DNA of 43,014 nucleotides from a virus. This document shows, piece by piece, positions 6,289 to 37,041 of the stretch. The stretch spans positions 1 to 43,014 of IMG/VR virus record IMGVR_UViG_3300005663_000094; one strand, given 5' to 3'. The notes under the pieces are model-generated. The model was not told the origin of the DNA and did no database searches. It was given only the letters and a program-made list of their open reading frames with translations. Every line of letters starts with the position of its first letter. Positions within the stretch are counted from its first letter, which is position 1. The translations under genes were made by a program, and so were the position numbers.

Positions 6289-7275
6289 TCAAAAACCCTC
6301 TTTATTAACATAGCCTGTCTTGCAATCACACGGGACGCTAGAGTTCCCATATTTCTTCCACATCTTACCCCAACAGATATGACATTTCTCTATCTCTCTT
6401 ATATTTGATAAATTAGCCCCTCTATCAACAATCCTGAAAGCCCACATCCTCCCCTCTATCGGTCTTTTGGGGTCTTTTACCTTACCAACTGTTAGCCTAC
6501 TTTCTAACTTCCCTAATGGGTCTATATTGAAATATACATCCGCCATATCACGAGTGAACCCTTTACCCCTGCCGAGGTCTGCCCCCTCCTCTTTTTGCAA
6601 TACAGCAACACTCACACCTTGTCCTGTAGCAGTCTTAATATCCTCTAGCACTTGCCCTATCTTATAAAAGTTGTCAGTCAGGTTAATCCAATCTATAATC
6701 GTTAATTTGCCGCCCTCAATGTAGTCTTCGTAATCCTTTCTTACAGGCAATAACAAAAACTTATCCTCATCCTCTCCATCCGCCCACTCTACCCAGTCCA
6801 TTTTTAACATCCGCCTCTTGAACTTCGGGCTGGGTAAATTGTCAAGAGTAGCGTATTCATTCCCCATTAGGATACAGGGATTAACATCTACATTCTCGCC
6901 CAATATATTAAGGGCTATAGTTGATTTGCCGTAGTTAGATACGCCTGTAATGACAACCAAATCGTTCTGTGAGACATTGATAGTGTCCTCAAACCCAAAG
7001 GTGCTATAATCACTGTGGCTTTTAGGCCATCTGAAATCATAATACTTAGTCTCATCAGCGTCTCTCCACCTTATGGGTTTAATGGGTTTGATTTTACGAT
7101 ATAAACCACGACCTAATCGCTTTAATCTTTTGTCTATACACAGACGGCTAATAACTTTATGGAAATTATCACTGTTCGGGTCTATCTTATATTTGGCACG
7201 GAGCTTGTCAATGGAGAACTCCTCCTCTTCTTTGTCTAGCCATATCTCAACCTGTGCTTTAGTTAATTCTGCCAT
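6289..7275 (-). CDS. RecA/DnaB-fold ATPase, probable replication protein
   Basis: The 328-residue protein has an N-terminal winged-helix-like region (about 1-60), a P-loop GVSNYGKST at 111-119, a hydrophobic strand ending in Asp (LTIIDW, 191-196) as Walker B, and a C-terminal CxxC...CxC zinc motif (CHICWG and PCDCKTG). This matches phage RecA-like or DnaB-like helicase/ATPases of the AAA_25 kind, used in replication or recombination. A direct-repeat array lies in the 110 nt upstream of its start, and its DNA-binding N-terminus could recognise it; that link is inference. AGAGGGG precedes the ATG. Confidence 0.82.
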   Translation of the reverse strand: MAELTKAQVEIWLDKEEEEFSIDKLRAKYKIDPNSDNFHKVISRLCIDKRLKRLGRGLYRKIKPIKPIRWRDADETKYYDFRWPKSHSDYSTFGFEDTINVSQNDLVVITGVSNYGKSTIALNILGENVDVNPCILMGNEYATLDNLPSPKFKRRMLKMDWVEWADGEDEDKFLLLPVRKDYEDYIEGGKLTIIDWINLTDNFYKIGQVLEDIKTATGQGVSVAVLQKEEGADLGRGKGFTRDMADVYFNIDPLGKLESRLTVGKVKDPKRPIEGRMWAFRIVDRGANLSNIREIEKCHICWGKMWKKYGNSSVPCDCKTGYVNKEGF

Positions 7276-8245: not shown

Positions 8246-8620
8246 CTATCCTCCTATCCTTGTCCCACAATGGTAACAGAAATCCATAAACTCTGTCCCT
8301 CCTTTAATTACTCCACCACAACTAGAGCATTCGTATCTGGGTTGGCCGCTATAGTCGTATGGTATCAGCTTACAGGCATTAACTATATTACCCAGAAGTC
8401 CCGCAACAACTCCCTGTCTGTAATTATCAGGTTTATTCATTACTAAGAGACAATCAGGCAGAAAGCCAAACGGGCAATCGGGTATCGGTTCGCTATGGAA
8501 GACATCGGTCTGACAGACATAAACCTCTTTAGCCTCTTCTTCTGAGATATTAAACTGTCCAGCGTAATACTGGTCGGCATATTTACACCCAAATCTAGTC
8601 TTTTCTCCTGTGTTACTCAT
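8246..8620 (-). CDS. Zinc-ribbon hypothetical protein
   Basis: A 124-residue protein with a C-terminal zinc ribbon: CSSCGG near residue 98 and CYHCG near 117. The N-terminal half has four more Cys (GCKYAD, VYVCQ, PDCPFG, PDCLL). This Cys pattern fits a metal-bound structural protein. No catalytic motif is seen. Confidence 0.8.
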   Translation of the reverse strand: MSNTGEKTRFGCKYADQYYAGQFNISEEEAKEVYVCQTDVFHSEPIPDCPFGFLPDCLLVMNKPDNYRQGVVAGLLGNIVNACKLIPYDYSGQPRYECSSCGGVIKGGTEFMDFCYHCGTRIGG

Positions 8621-11364: not shown

Positions 11365-11613
11365 CTACCTCCTAACCCACAATCTCAATATTTGTCTAGC
11401 CCATCCAATATACTCATCACAATTCTTACAGTAGTCCTTACCTGTTACCATAAAGCCCACTAAAGACCAGCATCCCATAATGCCGTTGACCGCATCGGGA
11501 TAACTACACCATTTCGGTTGTGGGTAATCTTTGGCACACTGCCCCCAAGTTATCTTCCTTTTGCTTATTTTAGTAAATTCCTTCTCCGTCAATGTGTGGA
11601 AGTATTTAATCAT
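11365..11613 (-). CDS. Hypothetical Cys-containing protein, 82 residues
   Basis: The product begins MIKYFHTLTEKEFTKISKRK and contains five Cys, including a CKNC pair at about 63-66, so metal binding is possible. A basic C-terminus (LRLWVRR) ends it. It overlaps the HNH gene by ATGA. Confidence 0.75.
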   Translation of the reverse strand: MIKYFHTLTEKEFTKISKRKITWGQCAKDYPQPKWCSYPDAVNGIMGCWSLVGFMVTGKDYCKNCDEYIGWARQILRLWVRR

Positions 11614-12407
11614 TTCTTTTTCACCCAGCCAGCCATTTGCTTCCTAAACCACCAGTAGCAATCTCGCCAAGCTCTGTTGTAATTTGGGTCAGTCAAGTAT
11701 CTCTCTGTATATCGTTGTGGCGTAGTAGGCAACTCTGCATCTGGGTCTATCTCAACACAGTTTTTAAGTTCCTCATCACATTTAGGGCAATTCATTTTAA
11801 TAGCTCCTTTCAAATGGTGTAATATGTTGTGTTCTTGGGGTGATACTGCCACCAAGTTTTCTGGGCGGTTATCGGTCTTTACGCCGTTCAGGTGGTGGGC
11901 ACATTCATTAAGCTTTAATGGCCGTCCTAACTTGGCTTCCAAAACCAACCTATGTTCTGGCACATAACCTTTGTTGTTAGCGTCTGGATGCCCGTGGTTT
12001 AATATACCAATATAGCCACCACCTATCTTTGCCCTACCTCCTTTCCACCGTGGGTTGTTACTATCCTTGTTATCCTTGGAGCAGGCTCTACATATTGCTC
12101 TCTGTGGTTTTCCGTGTACCAACATAACCCATCTAGGTTTATGGCAAACTTCACATTCCGACCACACCTTTTTCACAGATGGGTTTACACCTCTCGCTAA
12201 TTCTCTATTGGTTTTAATATCACCTAATTGAGGATTGCCTATAGGTGGCGTATAAGTGATAGTAGGGTCTGATAGAATGGCTTGGAGTATTTCTTGGGCT
12301 TGTTGTCTATATAGGCTTCGGTCTTGGTCGGTTACATACTCGCTATCAAAATCATCCTTTAGCCGTTGCCCACACAGTAGTCTAGCTATCTTCTCTAATT
12401 TATCCAC
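11610..12407 (-). CDS. HNH endonuclease, apparently inserted in another phage protein
   Basis: The 265-residue protein has three parts. Residues 1-50 are a helical segment typical of small phage proteins. Residues about 80-200 are an HNH homing-type nuclease with a Cys4 zinc site (CEVC, CRAC), WKGGR, EHRLVLEAKLG, and the AHHLNGVKTDNRPENL core near 170-185. Residues about 205-265 are a Cys-containing tail starting with an internal Met (MNCPKCDEEL) followed by an unrelated sequence. The outline suggests a homing endonuclease inserted into or fused with a resident gene. The catalytic HH/N residues are intact. Confidence 0.88.
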   Translation of the reverse strand: MDKLEKIARLLCGQRLKDDFDSEYVTDQDRSLYRQQAQEILQAILSDPTITYTPPIGNPQLGDIKTNRELARGVNPSVKKVWSECEVCHKPRWVMLVHGKPQRAICRACSKDNKDSNNPRWKGGRAKIGGGYIGILNHGHPDANNKGYVPEHRLVLEAKLGRPLKLNECAHHLNGVKTDNRPENLVAVSPQEHNILHHLKGAIKMNCPKCDEELKNCVEIDPDAELPTTPQRYTERYLTDPNYNRAWRDCYWWFRKQMAGWVKKK

Positions 12408-13024: not shown

Positions 13025-13391
13025 TTTTAACCCCATATTTCTGCCAGAATGCTTGCCACCAGAACTTAGATATAGAAAATACTACACCCTCTCCTCCATC
13101 AAATGTGCTGACAAGGGTGTTCTCTAACCCTTCTTTTATCTCCTTTATCACAGCATTATGGGCTTCCTTGAGGGCTTTCTTTTCTGCTAATTTGCCAGCA
13201 TTAAAACATATATCGCCGTGTGCTTTTAGCTGTTTCGCTATTACTTCCTCATCGGCGGCTAGTTGGGCTTGAGCAATCGCTCTGTCACTTGGCTTACAGC
13301 TACCAACGCTGCAGGGATGCCATCTACATACATCACAAGCCGAATGATAACCCCGTTCTATTTCCTCATCACTTATTCTCTTTAGTGTCAT
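13014..13391 (-). CDS. Hypothetical protein with N-terminal Cys cluster
   Basis: A 125-residue protein. Residues 19-32 hold four Cys and a His (CDVCRWHPCSVGSC), a likely zinc site. The remainder is helical and Ala/Glu/Lys rich, with a C-terminal aromatic stretch (FWWQAFWQKYG). AAAGGAGAG lies just upstream of the ATG. It is the first gene downstream of the long structured leader at 13392-13724, so that leader may regulate it. Confidence 0.8.
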   Translation of the reverse strand: MTLKRISDEEIERGYHSACDVCRWHPCSVGSCKPSDRAIAQAQLAADEEVIAKQLKAHGDICFNAGKLAEKKALKEAHNAVIKEIKEGLENTLVSTFDGGEGVVFSISKFWWQAFWQKYGVKNGR

Positions 13392-13724
13392 TTCTCTCCT
13401 TTATTGGTGGGTAGGCTAGGGCTTAATTTCCGCTTATGATTACTCAATGTCGGCGCTAACCCTTACGAGTTATCCTTCACCCTAGCCTTACCCGATGCTG
13501 GGGCTGGTGAAGCTTCTGGCTCTTACGCCATGTTATCTCGCCACTACATCTCAGTCTCATCTTAGTTCCCGCACCCCAGCAATTTGCCCAGTCAGTAGCC
13601 CTAATATGGATTATCAGCAGGCTTTCATCTGCTCGTTATAGGCGGTGCCATCCACTTACTACTCTCCTGCAGCCCTGTCGTCACCAACATATTACCCAGT
13701 CTAGCTGGGGGTAACTAGCATATG
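13392..13724 (-). ncRNA. Structured untranslated region, candidate ncRNA or leader
   Basis: No open frame of use is present in these 333 nt, but several stems are. GGGTAGGCTAGGG (13409-13421) pairs with CCCTAGCC-T-TACCC (13480-13493) with one bulge. TGCTGGGG (13496-13503) pairs with CCCCAGCA (13574-13581). AGCAG/CTGCT forms a hairpin near 13615-13632. AACATAT...ATATGTT encloses a CCCAG/CTGGG hairpin near 13687-13725. A sigma-70-like promoter (13728-13756) places the transcript start at the edge of the last stem. It ends at the ribosome binding site of the 13014-13391 gene. Confidence 0.55.
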
Positions 13725-13859
13725 TTAATTAAAGCACATATCATTTAATCTGTCAAGTTTAGGTAGATTAAAGGCTTCGGATAGTTTAAGGATTTTTAAC
13801 AGTCGTTTCTCCGTCTGGTCTCTTAGAATAGCTGCGATAAACAAATCCCCGTCCTTCAT
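13725..13859 (-). CDS. Small helical protein, 44 residues
   Basis: The ATG at 13859 has GGAGGTGAT directly upstream. The product (MKDGDLFIAAILRDQTEKRL and onward) is an amphipathic helix. The promoter for the structured region lies in its last codons. Function unknown. Confidence 0.7.
   Translation of the reverse strand: MKDGDLFIAAILRDQTEKRLLKILKLSEAFNLPKLDRLNDMCFN
13728..13756 (-). promoter_or_regulatory. Predicted sigma-70 promoter for the structured region
   Basis: Minus-strand TTGACA (complement of 13751-13756), 17 bp, then TTTAAT (complement of 13728-13733), five of six matches to TATAAT. The predicted start is near 13721, at the first stem of the untranslated region. Confidence 0.6.
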
Positions 13860-13885
13860 ATCACCTCCGCTAGTATTAAGAGTGG

Positions 13886-14224
13886 TTATGTAATTCTAGC
13901 TACAACTGCCACGTGTTCTTTCTCGTGATAAATGTTGAAAGTTATCCCCTGCTTCTTTAGAACTTCACGTTTACTGTGAAGTCCACAAATATAAGCCTTA
14001 TACGCTTTACCCTTAATTAAATTGTGGTGGCAATACACATCTTCGTGGTAGATACGCTTAACATCACCCACTTTAAGCTCTAACAAAAGCTGGGCAGACT
14101 TACTGTAATTCCCCCTACCCCTAGTTTGTCTAAGGAATTCGGTATCTTCACTATACGTATTGTCTTTACGCCTTCTTAATTCTCTAACAAGGTCAGCCGT
14201 TGGTATCCCGCTAATATCTCCCAT
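13886..14224 (-). CDS. Hypothetical 112-residue protein
   Basis: The N-terminus (GIPTADLVRELRRRKDN) is a short helix common at the start of small phage proteins. The rest contains a beta-rich segment with His and Cys (YHEDVYCHHNLIKG, YICGLHSKREV) and ends in a VAVVARIT strand. TTAAGGAGGTTGG precedes the start. Function unknown. Confidence 0.8.
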   Translation of the reverse strand: MGDISGIPTADLVRELRRRKDNTYSEDTEFLRQTRGRGNYSKSAQLLLELKVGDVKRIYHEDVYCHHNLIKGKAYKAYICGLHSKREVLKKQGITFNIYHEKEHVAVVARIT

Positions 14225-19594: not shown

Positions 19595-19759
19595 ATGTAT
19601 AATGGCTTAGATGATAAAGACTACGATACTATGGATTGGCTGTCTCCGTCAGAAGAAGTGGCAGAAAAGATGAGGGACATAACCAAAGAAGACTTATTGA
19701 GCTTAATGCCCGTGCGGAGGGGATGCCTGAGCCGAGGAGTGATTAGCCGTTATGGTTAA
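19595..19759 (+). CDS. Hypothetical 54-residue protein
   Basis: ATG preceded by TAGGAG at 19581-19586. The acidic N-terminal half (MYNGLDDKDYDTMDWLSPSE) is followed by a helix and a basic end. No family recognised. It is the last gene before the hairpin ending the early rightward unit. Confidence 0.6.
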   Translation: MYNGLDDKDYDTMDWLSPSEEVAEKMRDITKEDLLSLMPVRRGCLSRGVISRYG

Positions 19760-19806
19760 TATGGGCACTAATCGGAGGGTAATGTAGTAGGCTCAGGTAA
19801 TGGAGG

Positions 19807-19848
19807 CACGCTGTAAGGGTTAGTCCTTACGGGGTGTCTCTTTCTTTA
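19807..19848 (+). terminator. Candidate terminator before the packaging genes
   Basis: GTAAGG (19813-19818) pairs with CCTTAC (19825-19830) around GTTAGT, with a partial outer CAC/GTG, followed by TCTCTTTCTTT. It lies between the early rightward genes and terminase. Confidence 0.55.
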
Positions 19849-19956
19849 ACCACTTTAAGGGCTGTTTTTATATGTCAACTTAGCAGGTCGGTTATAGCTT
19901 TGGCAGTTGTGCTATATCAACTGCCTTTTTATACGGATAAATTATGTGGTGAGGAA

Positions 19957-31776: not shown

Positions 31777-32679
31777 ATGAATATCAGAAGTGGCAAGATA
31801 ACGATAGAAAACACGAACATATGCCCTGCGAGTTGCACGATTTGTCCGAGAGATAAATATAAACCATCTCTAGGAACGATGGACTTCAATCTGTTTGCTA
31901 AGATAATCAACCAGTGTTCCCGACAAGAAGGGATAGACACAATAGACATTGGGGGTTTCGGAGAGCCGTTTGCTGATAAACTTTTATTTGAGAGATGTGA
32001 ACTTATAAGGAAACGCCTGCCCAAGCCCCAGATATTTACGAGTTCTAACTGTTATTTAATGACACCCGATAAGTATGATGATGTTTGCAAATACATTGAC
32101 TCTCTCAAGATAAGTGTCTATGGGGTTTCAAAAGAAGCCTACGAAGCCTCTCACCGCACCTTAACATATGAAACAACTCGTGATAACATTCTCGGTCTAT
32201 TGGAGAGAAAAGATAAACCATACACAATAGGATTACTTACTCTGAGCGACGATAACCGACACGAGATGGAAGATTGGATTGCATATTGGCAACCCAAACT
32301 AGATGAGGTTTATGTCTGGCTGCCTCATAACTTCGGCGGGTTGATGGATTTCAGAACTATAAATAAACCACAGGTAAGTTGCGGGAGACCATTTAACGGC
32401 CCGCTTTACATTCACTTGGATGGTATAGTTTCAATGTGTTGTCTGGATATAAACAAGAAATTAGTTATCGGGGATATAAATAATCAATCTATAGTAGAGA
32501 TATTTAAGTCTGAGGCGATTAAGAATATAAGGAGAGCACACAGAAGATGTGATTTTAAGGGGCTTTTGTGCGAGAACTGCTGTCAGACAAATTATAATCC
32601 TGATGTTTTAGTTTATGCGTCTAATAAAGAAAGGAAGGTGGGGAAATTAAACTCCAATCTGAAGGTAGTGGCAGCCTGA
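31777..32679 (+). CDS. Radical SAM/SPASM enzyme
   Basis: The 300-residue protein has the CxxxCxxC cluster motif as Cys16, Cys20, Cys23 (ICPASCTICPRD), a GGFGEP GGE-like AdoMet motif, and a C-terminal SPASM-like domain with Cys in CGRPF, MCCLDI and CDFKG-LLCENCC, which would bind auxiliary iron-sulfur clusters. Such enzymes modify peptides or carbohydrates by radical chemistry. It opens the cargo cassette; no precursor peptide is seen nearby, so a sugar or nucleotide-sugar substrate is more likely. The start is the only plausible ATG and relies on the hairpin-bridged site. Confidence 0.9.
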   Translation: MNIRSGKITIENTNICPASCTICPRDKYKPSLGTMDFNLFAKIINQCSRQEGIDTIDIGGFGEPFADKLLFERCELIRKRLPKPQIFTSSNCYLMTPDKYDDVCKYIDSLKISVYGVSKEAYEASHRTLTYETTRDNILGLLERKDKPYTIGLLTLSDDNRHEMEDWIAYWQPKLDEVYVWLPHNFGGLMDFRTINKPQVSCGRPFNGPLYIHLDGIVSMCCLDINKKLVIGDINNQSIVEIFKSEAIKNIRRAHRRCDFKGLLCENCCQTNYNPDVLVYASNKERKVGKLNSNLKVVAA

Positions 32680-33374
32680 GACCGAAGCACCTTGCTATTA
32701 TCCCAGCGAGAGGTGGGTCTAAGAGATTACCTATTAAGAATATTAAACTATTCTGCGGCAAGCCTTTAATTTCATACACGATTGAGGCGGCGTTAAGCGC
32801 AGACTTTATAGATAGGGTCGTTGTTTCCACGGAAGACCCAGAAATTGAGAAAGTTGCTCGTGAGTATGGTGCTGAGGTCGTTATACGACCCCCTGAATTA
32901 GCGGCAGATACATCTCTGGTTCAGGATACCTTAATACATGTTGTAGAAACAGTAGAGAAGGGGGGTTATAAACCTTATTATATAGTTCTCTTAAACCCCA
33001 CATCTCCGTTAAGAGGAAGGGAGCAGATAGATGCAGCGTGCCATATCAACTTACACAGAATGGGCGATTCTCTACTAACTGTAACACCTACTAAATTGTG
33101 TCTATGGGCGACTGATGAAAGCGGAGAAGCGAAAGCTAATTATGACTACCTACACAAAGGAAGGACACAGGATTTAGGATTACAGTATCGTGAGAATGGA
33201 GCTATTTACATTGTCAAGAGAGACGTTTTAATGGAGACAAAGCAATTTATAGGGGGGAAGGTAACGTTGTTCCCAATTTCCCCTACCTGTTCGTTTGATA
33301 TAGATAACCACTTAGATTTCATAGTAGCAGAGAGGGTAATGGATGAAGTTATTGCTAATCAATCCCAAGTCTAA
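32676..33374 (+). CDS. neuA: CMP-nonulosonate (sialic acid) synthetase NeuA
   Basis: The 232-residue frame shows the CTP-binding motif of the NeuA family, AIIPARGGSKRLPIKNIK (7-24), the LLNPTSPLRGR block, and the C-terminal metal motif FDIDNHLDF with Asp208 and Asp210. The enzyme activates a nonulosonic acid with CTP to the CMP-sugar. No ATG, GTG or TTG lies between the upstream in-frame stop and the motif. The best start is CTG at 32676, which overlaps the previous stop as CTGA and gives the normal N-terminal length. ATT at 32646 is an alternative. NeuB lies two genes downstream. Confidence 0.9.
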   Translation: MRPKHLAIIPARGGSKRLPIKNIKLFCGKPLISYTIEAALSADFIDRVVVSTEDPEIEKVAREYGAEVVIRPPELAADTSLVQDTLIHVVETVEKGGYKPYYIVLLNPTSPLRGREQIDAACHINLHRMGDSLLTVTPTKLCLWATDESGEAKANYDYLHKGRTQDLGLQYRENGAIYIVKRDVLMETKQFIGGKVTLFPISPTCSFDIDNHLDFIVAERVMDEVIANQSQV

Positions 33375-34554
33375 GGCTCAAGATGCTTTGCCAATCCCCC
33401 CGCTAGGGATACTGTATCTTGCGGCTTATGTAAGAGACATAGCGGATGTTGAAGTGATTGATGACAATAGGGAACGCCACCGTAATCTTGAAAGCCGAAT
33501 TAGGAATGCGGATATTATCGGATTGACAGGAACTACTAGCCAATACAGCGAAGCCTGTAAATTAGCGGAGTTAGCTAGAAAGCATAACAAGATGGTTATT
33601 TATGGTGGGTCTCACGCCTCAGCTTTACCAGTGGAGTCGCTAGAATATATGGACAAAGTAGTTGTGGGTGAAGGCGAAGTCGCTTTGAGAGATATATTGT
33701 TAGATGGTGGGAATAAGATTGCCCGCAAGCCGTTTATTAAAGACCTTGATACACTCCCATTTCCAGCAAGGGATTTAGTTCCGATAAAAGATTACCCAAC
33801 AAGAGAGTTAAAGAGGTTTGAAGGTGCCTATACACATATGATGACAGGGAGGGGGTGTAATTCTAAATGTGTCTTCTGTTCGTCACCCCAAATGTGGAAA
33901 CGGCCAAGATTGATGAGTGCAAAGAGAGTCTTCGCCGAGATGATGGAAATCTACGAGAAATACGGTATAAAGAATATACACTTCCAGGATGATACGTTTA
34001 CTCTCTCACAAAAGCGTGTCATTGAACTGTGCCACCTCATAGAAGGGAGCGGTGTTGATTTTAAGTGGTCTTGCCAAACACGCCCCGATATGGTTTATGG
34101 GAATTTGGGGCTACTGGAACAAATGGCTAACGCAGGTTGTGTGCAGATAGAGTTTGGTGTTGAGTCGGGTGACGAGAGGTTACTAAAAACAGCCCGAAAG
34201 GGCTACACTAAAGAAGATATAAAAGCAGCCTTTTATCTAGCCAGGCAATCGGGCATTAAGACTTATGGGTTCTTTATTATCGGACTGCCTGGAGAGACAA
34301 TAATAACTTGGCTAAAATCAATCTGGTTTGCGTTAAGGTTGAAAACAGAAAGCGTGTGGACAGTCCTTATGCCCTATCCTGGGACTGCGGTCTATAACCA
34401 AGTTAAAGTCCTAGATACTGATTACTCCAACTGGATGTATAAGAAACCCATTATAAAATCAGGCTATCTCAGCCCTAGAATGTTAAGCACAATGAGATAC
34501 ATCGCAGATAAAATTACCAATGGATTATTTAATAAGGGGACTTATGCGAGTTAA
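33343..34554 (+). CDS. B12-binding-domain radical SAM protein
   Basis: A 403-residue enzyme with an N-terminal cobalamin-binding-like Rossmann region (about 1-130; LLLINPKSKAQDALPIPPLG, IGLTGTTSQYSEA, YGGSHASALP) and a radical SAM barrel with Cys172, Cys176, Cys179 (GCNSKCVFC). The GVESGDERLLKTARKG and GLPGET blocks are typical. B12 radical SAM enzymes often methylate unreactive carbons or rearrange sugars. It overlaps neuA by 32 nt, so it is part of the same cassette. The cobalamin His motif is not evident; cobalamin binding is therefore uncertain. Confidence 0.9.
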   Translation: MKLLLINPKSKAQDALPIPPLGILYLAAYVRDIADVEVIDDNRERHRNLESRIRNADIIGLTGTTSQYSEACKLAELARKHNKMVIYGGSHASALPVESLEYMDKVVVGEGEVALRDILLDGGNKIARKPFIKDLDTLPFPARDLVPIKDYPTRELKRFEGAYTHMMTGRGCNSKCVFCSSPQMWKRPRLMSAKRVFAEMMEIYEKYGIKNIHFQDDTFTLSQKRVIELCHLIEGSGVDFKWSCQTRPDMVYGNLGLLEQMANAGCVQIEFGVESGDERLLKTARKGYTKEDIKAAFYLARQSGIKTYGFFIIGLPGETIITWLKSIWFALRLKTESVWTVLMPYPGTAVYNQVKVLDTDYSNWMYKKPIIKSGYLSPRMLSTMRYIADKITNGLFNKGTYAS

Positions 34555-34674
34555 AGGCGGGAGCTAGGGTCTGGCCCTCTAAACCCTAACTCCTCTAGAT
34601 ACCGAGGGTTATCCCTTTCTCGCAGGCCTTACGATTTACTGTGTCGCCTTCGCACAGCGATATCATATAAAGGC
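34546..34674 (+). promoter_or_regulatory. Structured leader before neuB
   Basis: GCGAG (34546-34550) pairs with CTCGC (34619-34623). Inside are GGAG-C-TAGGGT/ACCCTA-A-CTCC (34560-34593, one mismatch) and AGGG-TTAT-CCCT (near 34605-34616), making a three-way junction. A second unit has GCCTT/AAGGC (34626-34630, 34670-34674) around CTGTG/CACAG (34639-34657). No gene fits here. It ends about 25 nt before the neuB start. Confidence 0.5.
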
Positions 34675-34699
34675 TACCACACTATAAGGAGTTTGTCAA

Positions 34700-35560
34700 G
34701 TGCTAGTTAAAATAGGCAACAAGTTAATAGGTGAAGGCAACCCCTGTTTTATAGTAGCTGACATAGGGATTAACCATAACGGGTCAATGAAAATCGCCAA
34801 GCAACTTATCAAAGCAGCATACAAAGCTGGTTGTGATGCGGTGAAATTCCAGAAGAGAACCATAGATGTTGTCTATACCAAAGAGGAGTTGGATAAACCG
34901 AGAGAAACTCCATTCGGTAAAACTAACAGAGAGTTAAAGGAACACCTAGAGTTTAGCCGTCAAGATTATGTGGATATTGACTATTACTGTAGAGAGTTGG
35001 GTATTCTGTGGTTCGCCTCTAGTTGGGACATAGAGTCGGTGGATTTTATAGAACGGTTTAACCCGCCGTGCCATAAGATTGCTTCCCCCCTGTTGACACA
35101 CACCCTATTACTAGAACGCCTGAGAGCCACAGGGAGACCACTAATCCTCTCAATAGGTATGAGCACACCAAGCGAAATAGAGGGGGCTGTTTTACAGCTT
35201 GATGAGGATAACTTAATTATATTACAATGCACCTCTACTTACCCCTGTGCTATTAGCGAATTAAACCTAAACGTTATCCGTGAACTTAAGGCATTATACA
35301 GACTTCCTGTGGGATATTCGGGGCACGAAGTGGGGTTAGCAACGACGGTAGCAGCGGTCGCCTTGGGTGCTAAGATGGTTGAGAGACATATTACTTTAGA
35401 CAGGGCAATGTGGGGGTCAGACCAAGCAGCATCTGTAGAACCTTTGGGATTTGAAAGATTGGTTAAATACATCCATTCGGTAGAAGGGGCTATGGGTGAT
35501 GGGATGAAAATAGTTTACGATAGTGAGGTGGCGGTGAGAGAAAAACTAAGGAGAGTATGA
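34700..35560 (+). CDS. neuB: N-acetylneuraminate-type synthase NeuB, SAF domain missing
   Basis: The 286-residue protein is the TIM-barrel synthase that condenses a hexose derivative with phosphoenolpyruvate. Motifs: ADIGINHNG at 20-28, KFQ at 49-51, HKIAS at 125-129, TSTYP at 178-182, YSGHE with His209 and VERHITLDR with His230, the two expected metal ligands. The first motif has Asp21 where Glu is usual. The family is normally about 340-350 residues because of a C-terminal antifreeze-like (SAF) domain; this one ends right after the barrel. The start is GTG with AAGGAG nine bases upstream. The sugar product (sialic, legionaminic or other) cannot be told. Confidence 0.92.
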   Translation: MLVKIGNKLIGEGNPCFIVADIGINHNGSMKIAKQLIKAAYKAGCDAVKFQKRTIDVVYTKEELDKPRETPFGKTNRELKEHLEFSRQDYVDIDYYCRELGILWFASSWDIESVDFIERFNPPCHKIASPLLTHTLLLERLRATGRPLILSIGMSTPSEIEGAVLQLDEDNLIILQCTSTYPCAISELNLNVIRELKALYRLPVGYSGHEVGLATTVAAVALGAKMVERHITLDRAMWGSDQAASVEPLGFERLVKYIHSVEGAMGDGMKIVYDSEVAVREKLRRV

Positions 35561-35916
35561 ACATAGAATGGTTTAACGAAATCAAGAAGAAGTGGGGTGA
35601 GGAAATATGGTTGGTAAACGAAGAATATTGTGGGAAGTTGCTCTTAATCAAACAGGGTGCGGAGAGTTCTTGCCATTATCATCCGAAGAAAAAGGAAACA
35701 TTCTACTGCCTGGAGGGGTTTGTTAAGCTCACAATACAGGGGAAAGAGTATAATCTAGCCCCTATGTTAAGACCGAAAACCATCTTGCCGAATGAATTAC
35801 ATAAATTCAAAGGTATATCCGATGCGGTCATTATAGAAATAAGCACACACCACGATGACGAAGACGTTATTCGTCTATCAGAGTCAAGGGGGGCGGATGG
35901 GAATACCCCCGATTAA
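35557..35916 (+). CDS. Small cupin protein
   Basis: A 119-residue single-domain cupin. Motif 1 has His40, His42 and Glu47 (CHYHPKKKETFYCLEG); motif 2 has His82 (PNELHKFKG). Such one-domain cupins occur in nonulosonic acid gene clusters and may be sugar isomerases or tailoring enzymes. Translationally coupled to neuB (ATGA). The substrate is unknown. Confidence 0.88.
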   Translation: MNIEWFNEIKKKWGEEIWLVNEEYCGKLLLIKQGAESSCHYHPKKKETFYCLEGFVKLTIQGKEYNLAPMLRPKTILPNELHKFKGISDAVIIEISTHHDDEDVIRLSESRGADGNTPD

Positions 35917-36460
35917 AATTGATATAGGGTGTGGGAACAGACCCAAGAGGGGGTTTATGGGGATTGACATCTTCAACGGGGCCAATGTCACGATATGTTG
36001 GGATGTTACCAAAGGATTACCATTTACAACGAGCACTGTGGATGAGGTTTATTCCGACCACTTCTTTGAGCATTTATGTATAGAAGATGTCCAGAAGTTA
36101 ATGGGAGAGATACATAGAGTATGCAAACCAAACGCTCTGGTAGAAATAAGAGTCCCCCATTTTAGCGGGTTTACAAACTTTTATGAATTTCACAAGACAT
36201 CATATAGGCATAATTCGTTTGCAGAATACACGAACACTTGGGGGATGTGGGATTCCAAGTATCAATTTGAATTACTCAGTGATAAGATAAACCTTGTCAA
36301 TCGTCAGAGTCCTAAAAACCATAGAGTAACGAAGTATTATCTCTGGAACTATCCGATGGAATGGATTGTAAATAAGATGAAGTTAGTTTATGAAACGACA
36401 GGGTGGTGCCACATATTTCCAGCTTGGGAGATAATTTTTAAGATGAAAGTAAGAAAATGA
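35897..36460 (+). CDS. Class I SAM-dependent methyltransferase
   Basis: From Met at 35897 (AAGGGGGG just upstream) the product is 187 residues. It has the AdoMet-binding motif IDIGCGNRPKRG at 8-19, an acidic strand end (GIDIF), the DEVYSDHFFEHL block at 49-60 and HRVCKPNALVEI. This is a small Rossmann methyltransferase, likely acting on a sugar, lipid or protein substrate in the cassette. It overlaps the cupin gene by 20 nt. Confidence 0.88.
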   Translation: MGIPPIKIDIGCGNRPKRGFMGIDIFNGANVTICWDVTKGLPFTTSTVDEVYSDHFFEHLCIEDVQKLMGEIHRVCKPNALVEIRVPHFSGFTNFYEFHKTSYRHNSFAEYTNTWGMWDSKYQFELLSDKINLVNRQSPKNHRVTKYYLWNYPMEWIVNKMKLVYETTGWCHIFPAWEIIFKMKVRK

Positions 36461-37041
36461 AAGAAGTTATTTTGCTTGGTATGGGGGCTACTCTGATAAA
36501 ATGCCCTTACGATACAGAGGTGTGGGGAGTAAACAAGGTCTATAGAATGGCTAGGAAGTTAGATAAGTTATTTATCACCGATAGAAGATACTACCCTGAC
36601 GGAACTCCTAGCTGGGACTTTGACGAGTTAAACTCTTTGAATATACCTATTGTTAGTTTACACCGATACCCCGAAATAAAGAAACTTGTCCGTTATCCAT
36701 ACAGTAAAGTCATAGAACGATTTGGTGGGATGGGGTATGAGTTCTTCACTAATTCAATCTGCTATATGATAGCCTACGCCCTTTATAAAGGTTATGAGAA
36801 AATCAGAATGTATGGCGTAGATATGTCAGACCAGAAAGAATATATCCTAGAAAGGGGGGGGGTGGAATACTGGGTTGGAAGGGCAGAGGGGATGGGTGTG
36901 GTGATGGAAAATACTAAGGGTTCTACCGTCTGTAAACCACCTATGGGTGTTCCCTATGGGTTTAAGTTACATATAGACTATAAAGAAATAGACCCCGACA
37001 ATCTATTAGGGAGAAAGAGATGCAAATCTGGTTGCCAATAA
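36457..37041 (+). CDS. DUF115-like sugar-transfer-related protein
   Basis: A 194-residue protein with VILLGMGATL at the N-terminus, a LFITDRRYY strand, and the block TNSICYMIAYALYKGYEKIR followed by MYGVDMSDQKEY and VEYWVGRAEGMG. This pattern is shared with DUF115/MAF-type flagellin glycosyl-transferase-related proteins and phage relatives of unknown function. Next to CMP-sugar synthesis it is the best candidate for a transferase step; that is inference. Confidence 0.7.
   Translation: MKEVILLGMGATLIKCPYDTEVWGVNKVYRMARKLDKLFITDRRYYPDGTPSWDFDELNSLNIPIVSLHRYPEIKKLVRYPYSKVIERFGGMGYEFFTNSICYMIAYALYKGYEKIRMYGVDMSDQKEYILERGGVEYWVGRAEGMGVVMENTKGSTVCKPPMGVPYGFKLHIDYKEIDPDNLLGRKRCKSGCQ

Follow-up and report, generated by a model that had tools for sequence, protein, structure and literature searches.

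A candidate cis-acting RNA leader with a conserved 3' module ahead of an early operon in an uncultivated phage

What is the function of a 333-nt gap between two genes of a phage genome? The gap lies at 13392-13724 of the window (the whole 43,014-nt stretch of IMG/VR record IMGVR_UViG_3300005663_000094), where it separates co-directional minus-strand genes and is read from 13724 to 13392 (Table 1). As the first-pass annotation had stated, it contains no credible gene in any frame on either strand; its longest open reading frame encodes 48 aa on the plus strand and lacks a Shine-Dalgarno (SD) site. No tRNA was called in the region and no intrinsic terminator-like site was found there. A search of Rfam gave no match, either at gathering scores on the window or at E values up to 10 on 13300-13900 (cmscan). 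The Cys cluster ascribed to the downstream protein is indeed present in its N-terminus, and the protein itself matches no family. The idea that the genome is otherwise tightly packed does not hold, since gaps of 183-534 nt are found elsewhere, some of them containing small ORFs. Far from this locus, the late region of the window (31777-37041, plus strand) appears, as read from the sequence, to carry metabolic genes among the structural genes, encoding radical-SAM-like, sialic/legionaminic-acid-synthase-like, cupin-like and methyltransferase-like proteins.

Table 1. Features of the leader locus in the window, and copies of the M1 module in related phages.
Feature	Position	Strand	Remarks
Upstream small gene, 44 aa	13725..13859	-	Perfect SD GGAGGTGAT; stop codon followed by first RNA base
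Promoter -35 element TTGACA	13751..13756	-	Exact consensus; within 3' end of 44-aa ORF
Extended -10 element TGC-TTTAAT	13728..13736	-	TTTAAT at 13733-13728; layout TTGACA-N14-TGN-T as at three other sites
Domain 1, hairpin AACATAT..TTACCC / GGGTAA..ATATGTT	13686..13726	-	Inverted repeats; no relatives found
Domain 2, branched hairpin, outer stem AGTAGT / GCTACT	13594..13663	-	From minimum-energy structure; no relatives found
Domain 3, hairpin TGCTGGGG / CCCCAGCA	13496..13581	-	Inverted repeat; z = -1.0; no match to the M1 model here
Domain 4 (M3)	13409..13493	-	z = -4.1; homologues L139:2567-2650 and L139:2807-2892; stem-only relative L141:8234-8335
Linker ACCAATAA and SD AGGAG	13396..13408	-	Linker common to second L139 copy (CCCAATAAAGAGGAG) and L141 (CACCAATTAAAAAGGAG)
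Downstream gene, 125 aa	13014..13391	-	N-terminal Cys cluster (CDVCRWHPCSVGSC); no family
M1 copies	L102:452-559; L103:8155-8234; L107:17779-17880; L130:6454-6517; L133:11343-11405; L141:8132-8200 and 8383-8463; L142:6482-6549; L144:1210-1443; L176:1511-1597		

Does the region have relatives? None were found by blastn against named phages, plasmids and the record itself, by peptide-pattern searches with the 125-aa protein, the terminase and the portal, or in two scans of 85k genomes for related prophages. Relatives identified through the capsid were too incomplete to span the region. An alignment of the RecA-like ATPase (window 6289-7275 and two relatives) led to 22 related viral loci, including L139 (IMGVR_UViG_3300020171_000148) and L141. 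Between L139 and the window, no link was detected beyond a replication protein with 38% identity and a few further, weak matches among the proteins. A match of 15 nt in L095 was discarded; it falls within a coding gene there and is attributed to chance. Also rejected as a homologue was a 196-nt intergenic hairpin in L095 (5889-6084, z = -3.0), which scored 36, a value reached by 1.5% of shuffles, but has no module in common with the region and is an analogue only. Hairpins of this type (CTTTAACAA(A)YTGAATACTGGGCAGG ... CCTGCCC..CAGTATT, up to 18 bp) were seen both at this site and at L128:5017-5127.

It is the 3' end of the region that has homologues. The last 85 bases before the linker form a module, M3, in which a 13-bp stem with one bulge (GGGT-a-AGGCTAGGG / CCCTAGCCT-ACCC) closes a three-way junction. 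The inner hairpins are TAACTC-GTAA-GGGTTA and CCG-ACAT-TGA-GTAA-TCA-TAAG-CGG, and their loops, as modelled, are of the GNRA type. L139 has two copies of M3 (E 6.5e-10 and 2.8e-8), which follow an HNH gene within noncoding DNA and are separated by unrelated sequence; they score 97 and 86 bits with covariance model R1, which was built from these same sequences. The inner sequence is near-invariant between the window and L139 (AAGGATAACTCGTAWGGGTTAG...AAGCGGAAA). In the closing stem (window GGGT-a-AGGCTAGGG/CCCTAGCCTACCC; L139 GGATTGGAGAGGG/CCCTCCCCAGTCC), two double changes are counted, a third appears after alignment of the bulge, and one pair is broken. The match in L141 comprises only the stem (GGTGGG-aa-TAGGTTGGG/CCCAACCTACCCACC) and the 3' linker to the SD site, with a score of 48, where shuffles reach 35 at most.

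The position of M3 relative to the next gene is also retained. The linker CAATAAAG joins the stem to the SD site of the next gene both in the window, where the distance is 8 nt, and in the second L139 copy, and similar sequences precede the SD in all three phages (window ACCAATAAAGGAG, L139 second copy CCCAATAAAGAGGAG, L141 CACCAATTAAAAAGGAG). In L141 the stem is followed by a linker and an SD site with no start codon after it, and the module lies within a tandem array.

How strong is the case for M3? A shuffle test of stem covariation gave 143/500, from two or three sequences only. Because so few sequences cannot yield a significant test, the claim draws on the pattern of changes, the z-scores of the four copies (-4.1 in the window, -2.4 and -2.1 in L139, and -4.4 at the stem-only relative in L141) and the improbable sequence match. 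The first-pass annotation had named a lack of stem covariation in relatives as one of two results that would refute it. Helices kept by compensatory change, the mark of a conserved structured RNA, were found for the closing stem of domain 4 when the window is compared with L139, and in L141 for this stem only; the remaining three hairpins gave no relatives. Since the pairing survives two-sided changes and the inner sequence is nearly identical in L139, M3 is, on this comparative evidence, a real and selected RNA module. It is absent from the known Rfam families. The full module has been seen in three copies in two genomes, that is, in one phage besides that of the window; because L139 and L141 share one metagenome identifier, M3 is known from a narrow phylogenetic range.

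The structure of the remainder is less distinctive. For the entire 333 nt the folding energy is -102 kcal/mol, which places the region in the lowest 1-2% of segments of that length in the genome; this low energy is mostly due to a GC content above that of the surroundings (49.8% compared with ~41% in the flanks, in the top 0.5% of early-region windows). Against dinucleotide shuffles the region has a z of -1.4, with 34 of 400 shuffles folding as well, and a z of -1.5 or below is reached by 10% of the minus-strand 333-nt segments of the genome. Thus, the argument that filler would not be so structured does not hold for the entire region, which about 10% of segments equal, but stands for the 3' domain (13493-13409) with its z of -4.1. 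Of the four or more long stems proposed earlier, the 13-bp stem with a single bulge is confirmed and the others are present; domains 1-3, for which no relatives were found, could be chance structure. An 18-nt internal repeat (GACTGGG..TGG) was dismissed, being compatible with chance by a rough estimate. Elsewhere in the window, a strongly folded stretch lies upstream of the terminase genes (19690-19870, plus strand; z = -4.2 for a 120-nt window and -2.6 for 181 nt) and includes a terminator-like hairpin, GTAAGG/CCTTAC.

Is the region transcribed from a promoter of its own? The near-consensus promoter reported earlier is present, with a spacer of 17 nt between TTGACA and TTTAAT and with an extended -10 TG; a rough sigma-70 weight matrix puts it seventh among all sites genome-wide, with 0-4 equally good sites in random sequence. 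The TTGACA-N14-TGN layout recurs at early-region sites 16262(-), 17859(-) and 18375(+). However, the -10 element lacks A at the second position and the site is located inside the end of the 44-aa ORF. The transcription start is predicted near 13721. The description of the RNA as promoter-driven is plausible in the window, where this promoter-like site may drive the leader, but does not extend to the module copies in L139 and L141, beside which no promoter was found.

The reading that we favour, with a probability of about 0.5, is that the region forms the structured 5' leader, acting in cis, of a minus-strand operon whose first gene encodes the 125-aa protein. We infer that transcription would start at ~13721 or read through from upstream, and that the nascent RNA would fold into a string of four hairpin domains, M3 being the last before the SD site. 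Acting in cis, the leader would then set how strongly the downstream genes are expressed, through contacts with a protein, with the polymerase or with a different portion of the same leader. Known cis-regulatory leaders, such as riboswitches, T-boxes and ribosomal protein leaders, are likewise long folded 5' UTRs that end just before the SD site of the first gene. In contrast to these, the present region has no Rfam aptamer match and no evident expression platform, and the protein downstream is without a known family. Several points speak against a leader: the small number of M3 copies and genomes, the lack of relatives for domains 1-3, the L141 module in its tandem array with an SD site that no start codon follows, the missing promoters beside the L139 and L141 copies, and the ordinary foldedness of the whole region.

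The first-pass annotation had left the choice between a cis-regulatory leader and a free phage noncoding RNA. Could the region encode an independent trans-acting RNA of the GOLLD or ROOL kind, expressed from a dedicated promoter and released from the mRNA by cleavage? GOLLD and ROOL are phage and prophage RNAs whose function is not known (PMC12286853), and the present region resembles them in being phage-encoded, noncoding, multi-domain and without assigned function. The promoter-like site, the multi-domain fold and the repetition of a modular architecture in L139 and L141 would all suit such an RNA. However, the suggested comparison with GOLLD, ROOL and other phage RNAs returned no Rfam family, the GOLLD and ROOL covariance models included (same cmscan searches). 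The region is also half their length (~330 nt compared with >600 nt), has no neighbouring tRNA island, adjoins an SD site, has 5' domains that are not conserved and folds with ordinary overall energy. A leader acting in cis is the better fit because there is no terminator and because M3 abuts the SD site through a conserved linker, an arrangement seen in several phages; a free RNA is therefore considered unlikely.

The related phages provide a wider context. Many of them contain an intergenic module of 60-130 nt, M1 (TGCTGGTGTC...CCGAGCCAGCA). A covariance model, R2, built from 10 copies with the core GCTGGTGTC...CCGAGCCAGC, finds 19 copies in all at E < 0.02 in the same record set, nine of them outside the building set. 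The outer stem of M1 covaries, with 10 double-change cells and none of 500 shuffles giving as many, in an alignment fitted to the model. Two crossing pairings were recognised by eye, CCTG..CAGG (variants CCTA/TAGG, CTCCC/GGGAG and ATCCA/TGGAT) and TCGGY..RCCGA (variants TCGGT/ACCGA, TCGGC/GCCGA and TCGGTC/GACCGA); M1 is therefore probably pseudoknotted. At L141, the single locus searched against Rfam, M1 gave no match; M1 may be regarded as a separate candidate RNA family. It was not detected in the window, where the best R2 match (E 0.15) lies elsewhere and on the other strand. In L176, M1 is immediately followed by a strong intrinsic terminator (1597-1680, GCCGTATA..TATACGGCTCTTTTTTT), an arrangement that recalls an aptamer with its expression platform.

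M1, M3 and a GAAA-capped hairpin, M2 (GCCAGCCACCCGAAAGGGC), are strung together in differing orders and copy numbers in L139, L141, L142 and L144. The M1 copy of L144 and the M3 copy of the window lie directly behind strong promoter-like sites; the remaining copies are located between co-directional genes without a clear promoter and would thus be parts of longer mRNAs. Given these varied arrangements, the leader of the window looks like one of a set of modular leaders. We tentatively propose, as a possibility that falls short of being probable, that an uncultivated phage clade builds its early-operon leaders from an exchangeable RNA kit of M1 (~17 of 50 records), M2 and M3, none of them in Rfam, which are duplicated and shuffled like cassettes.

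Other small elements were noticed in these genomes. A tRNA-like element in the window (15769-15640, minus strand; TAGGGTGTAGTTTAATGGT...GGGGGTTCGTATCCCCTCACCCTA) has an 18-nt insertion and is enclosed by a longer hairpin, AGCTGGG../..CGGCT; a similar stretch in L162 (1511-1640, minus strand) lies within an M1-type stem, and at L139:2037-2153 tRNA-like ends (TGTCTGG ... CTGAGTTCAAATCTTAGCCAGACA) flank a long insert. ARAGORN called neither the window element nor that of L139. A hairpin with a bulged A, CCTGACC-N4-5-GGCAGG, occurs immediately ahead of three gene starts in two phages (window 17804-17786 and 16090-16071, both minus strand; L122:9965-9983) and looks like a translational operator.

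Might the leader serve antitermination? In this reading, modelled on lambda nut, HK022 put and the rrn boxA leader, the polymerase or Nus factors would be bound by the emerging transcript, which would let the polymerase pass terminators downstream. The leader does resemble lambda nut and rrn boxA in being a promoter-proximal folded RNA in an early phage operon. A recurring boxA-like flank, CTTTAACAACTGAATA, precedes some analogous hairpins in the related phages (13 sites, with 0-2 expected in random sequence), and the L176 copy of M1 lies just upstream of an intrinsic terminator. However, the leader of the window lacks this flank, and sites of this type show, as a group, no significant excess of structure over random places (p = 0.14). 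For the published boxA consensus, GYTCTTTAANA (PMC5725501), these phages show no enrichment (7 matches, 6.6 expected), and 13392-13740 contains no match with 0-1 mismatch; a single match with two mismatches, at 13727-13737, overlaps the -10 element, and such matches are at chance level. A boxA reading is accordingly not supported. No N-like protein was identified, and the downstream stretch of the operon that was scanned has no strong predicted terminators. Antitermination is considered distinctly unlikely.

A further suggestion is that these modules are mobile or selfish cassettes, relics of introns or homing elements that copy themselves between intergenic sites. The two M3 copies of L139, separated by unrelated sequence, and the presence of HNH genes nearby in the window (11610-12407), L139 (2188-2514) and L141 (7334-7831) are consistent with this idea. 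By contrast, the distance to the HNH gene varies, and Rfam gives no match to group I or group II introns or to HEARO or omega RNA; resemblances to RNase P, tRNA and group I introns were likewise abandoned for want of an Rfam match. The protein adjacent to the region belongs to no family (no IscB or TnpB), and the nearest HNH protein is of the HNH_3 type and about 1 kb away. Compensatory changes indicate that the fold itself is selected, and mobile cassettes are a very unlikely explanation. Functionless chance structure in a GC-rich spacer would agree with the whole-region z-score but is highly improbable, and for domain 4 appears largely refuted by the covarying stem kept in a phage as distant as L139.

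The region adds to the few structured RNAs known from phages a module that Rfam lacks. At 85 nt, M3 is small, with pairing specific enough that mutants and compensatory mutants could be tested directly in reporters; M1, with 19 aligned copies and strong stem covariation, is fit for submission as an RNA family and for larger metagenome searches. The finding points to an uncultivated phage clade that seemingly mixes folded RNA modules before small early genes. If the proposal of a modular kit is true, it would represent a previously undescribed RNA regulatory or decoy system.
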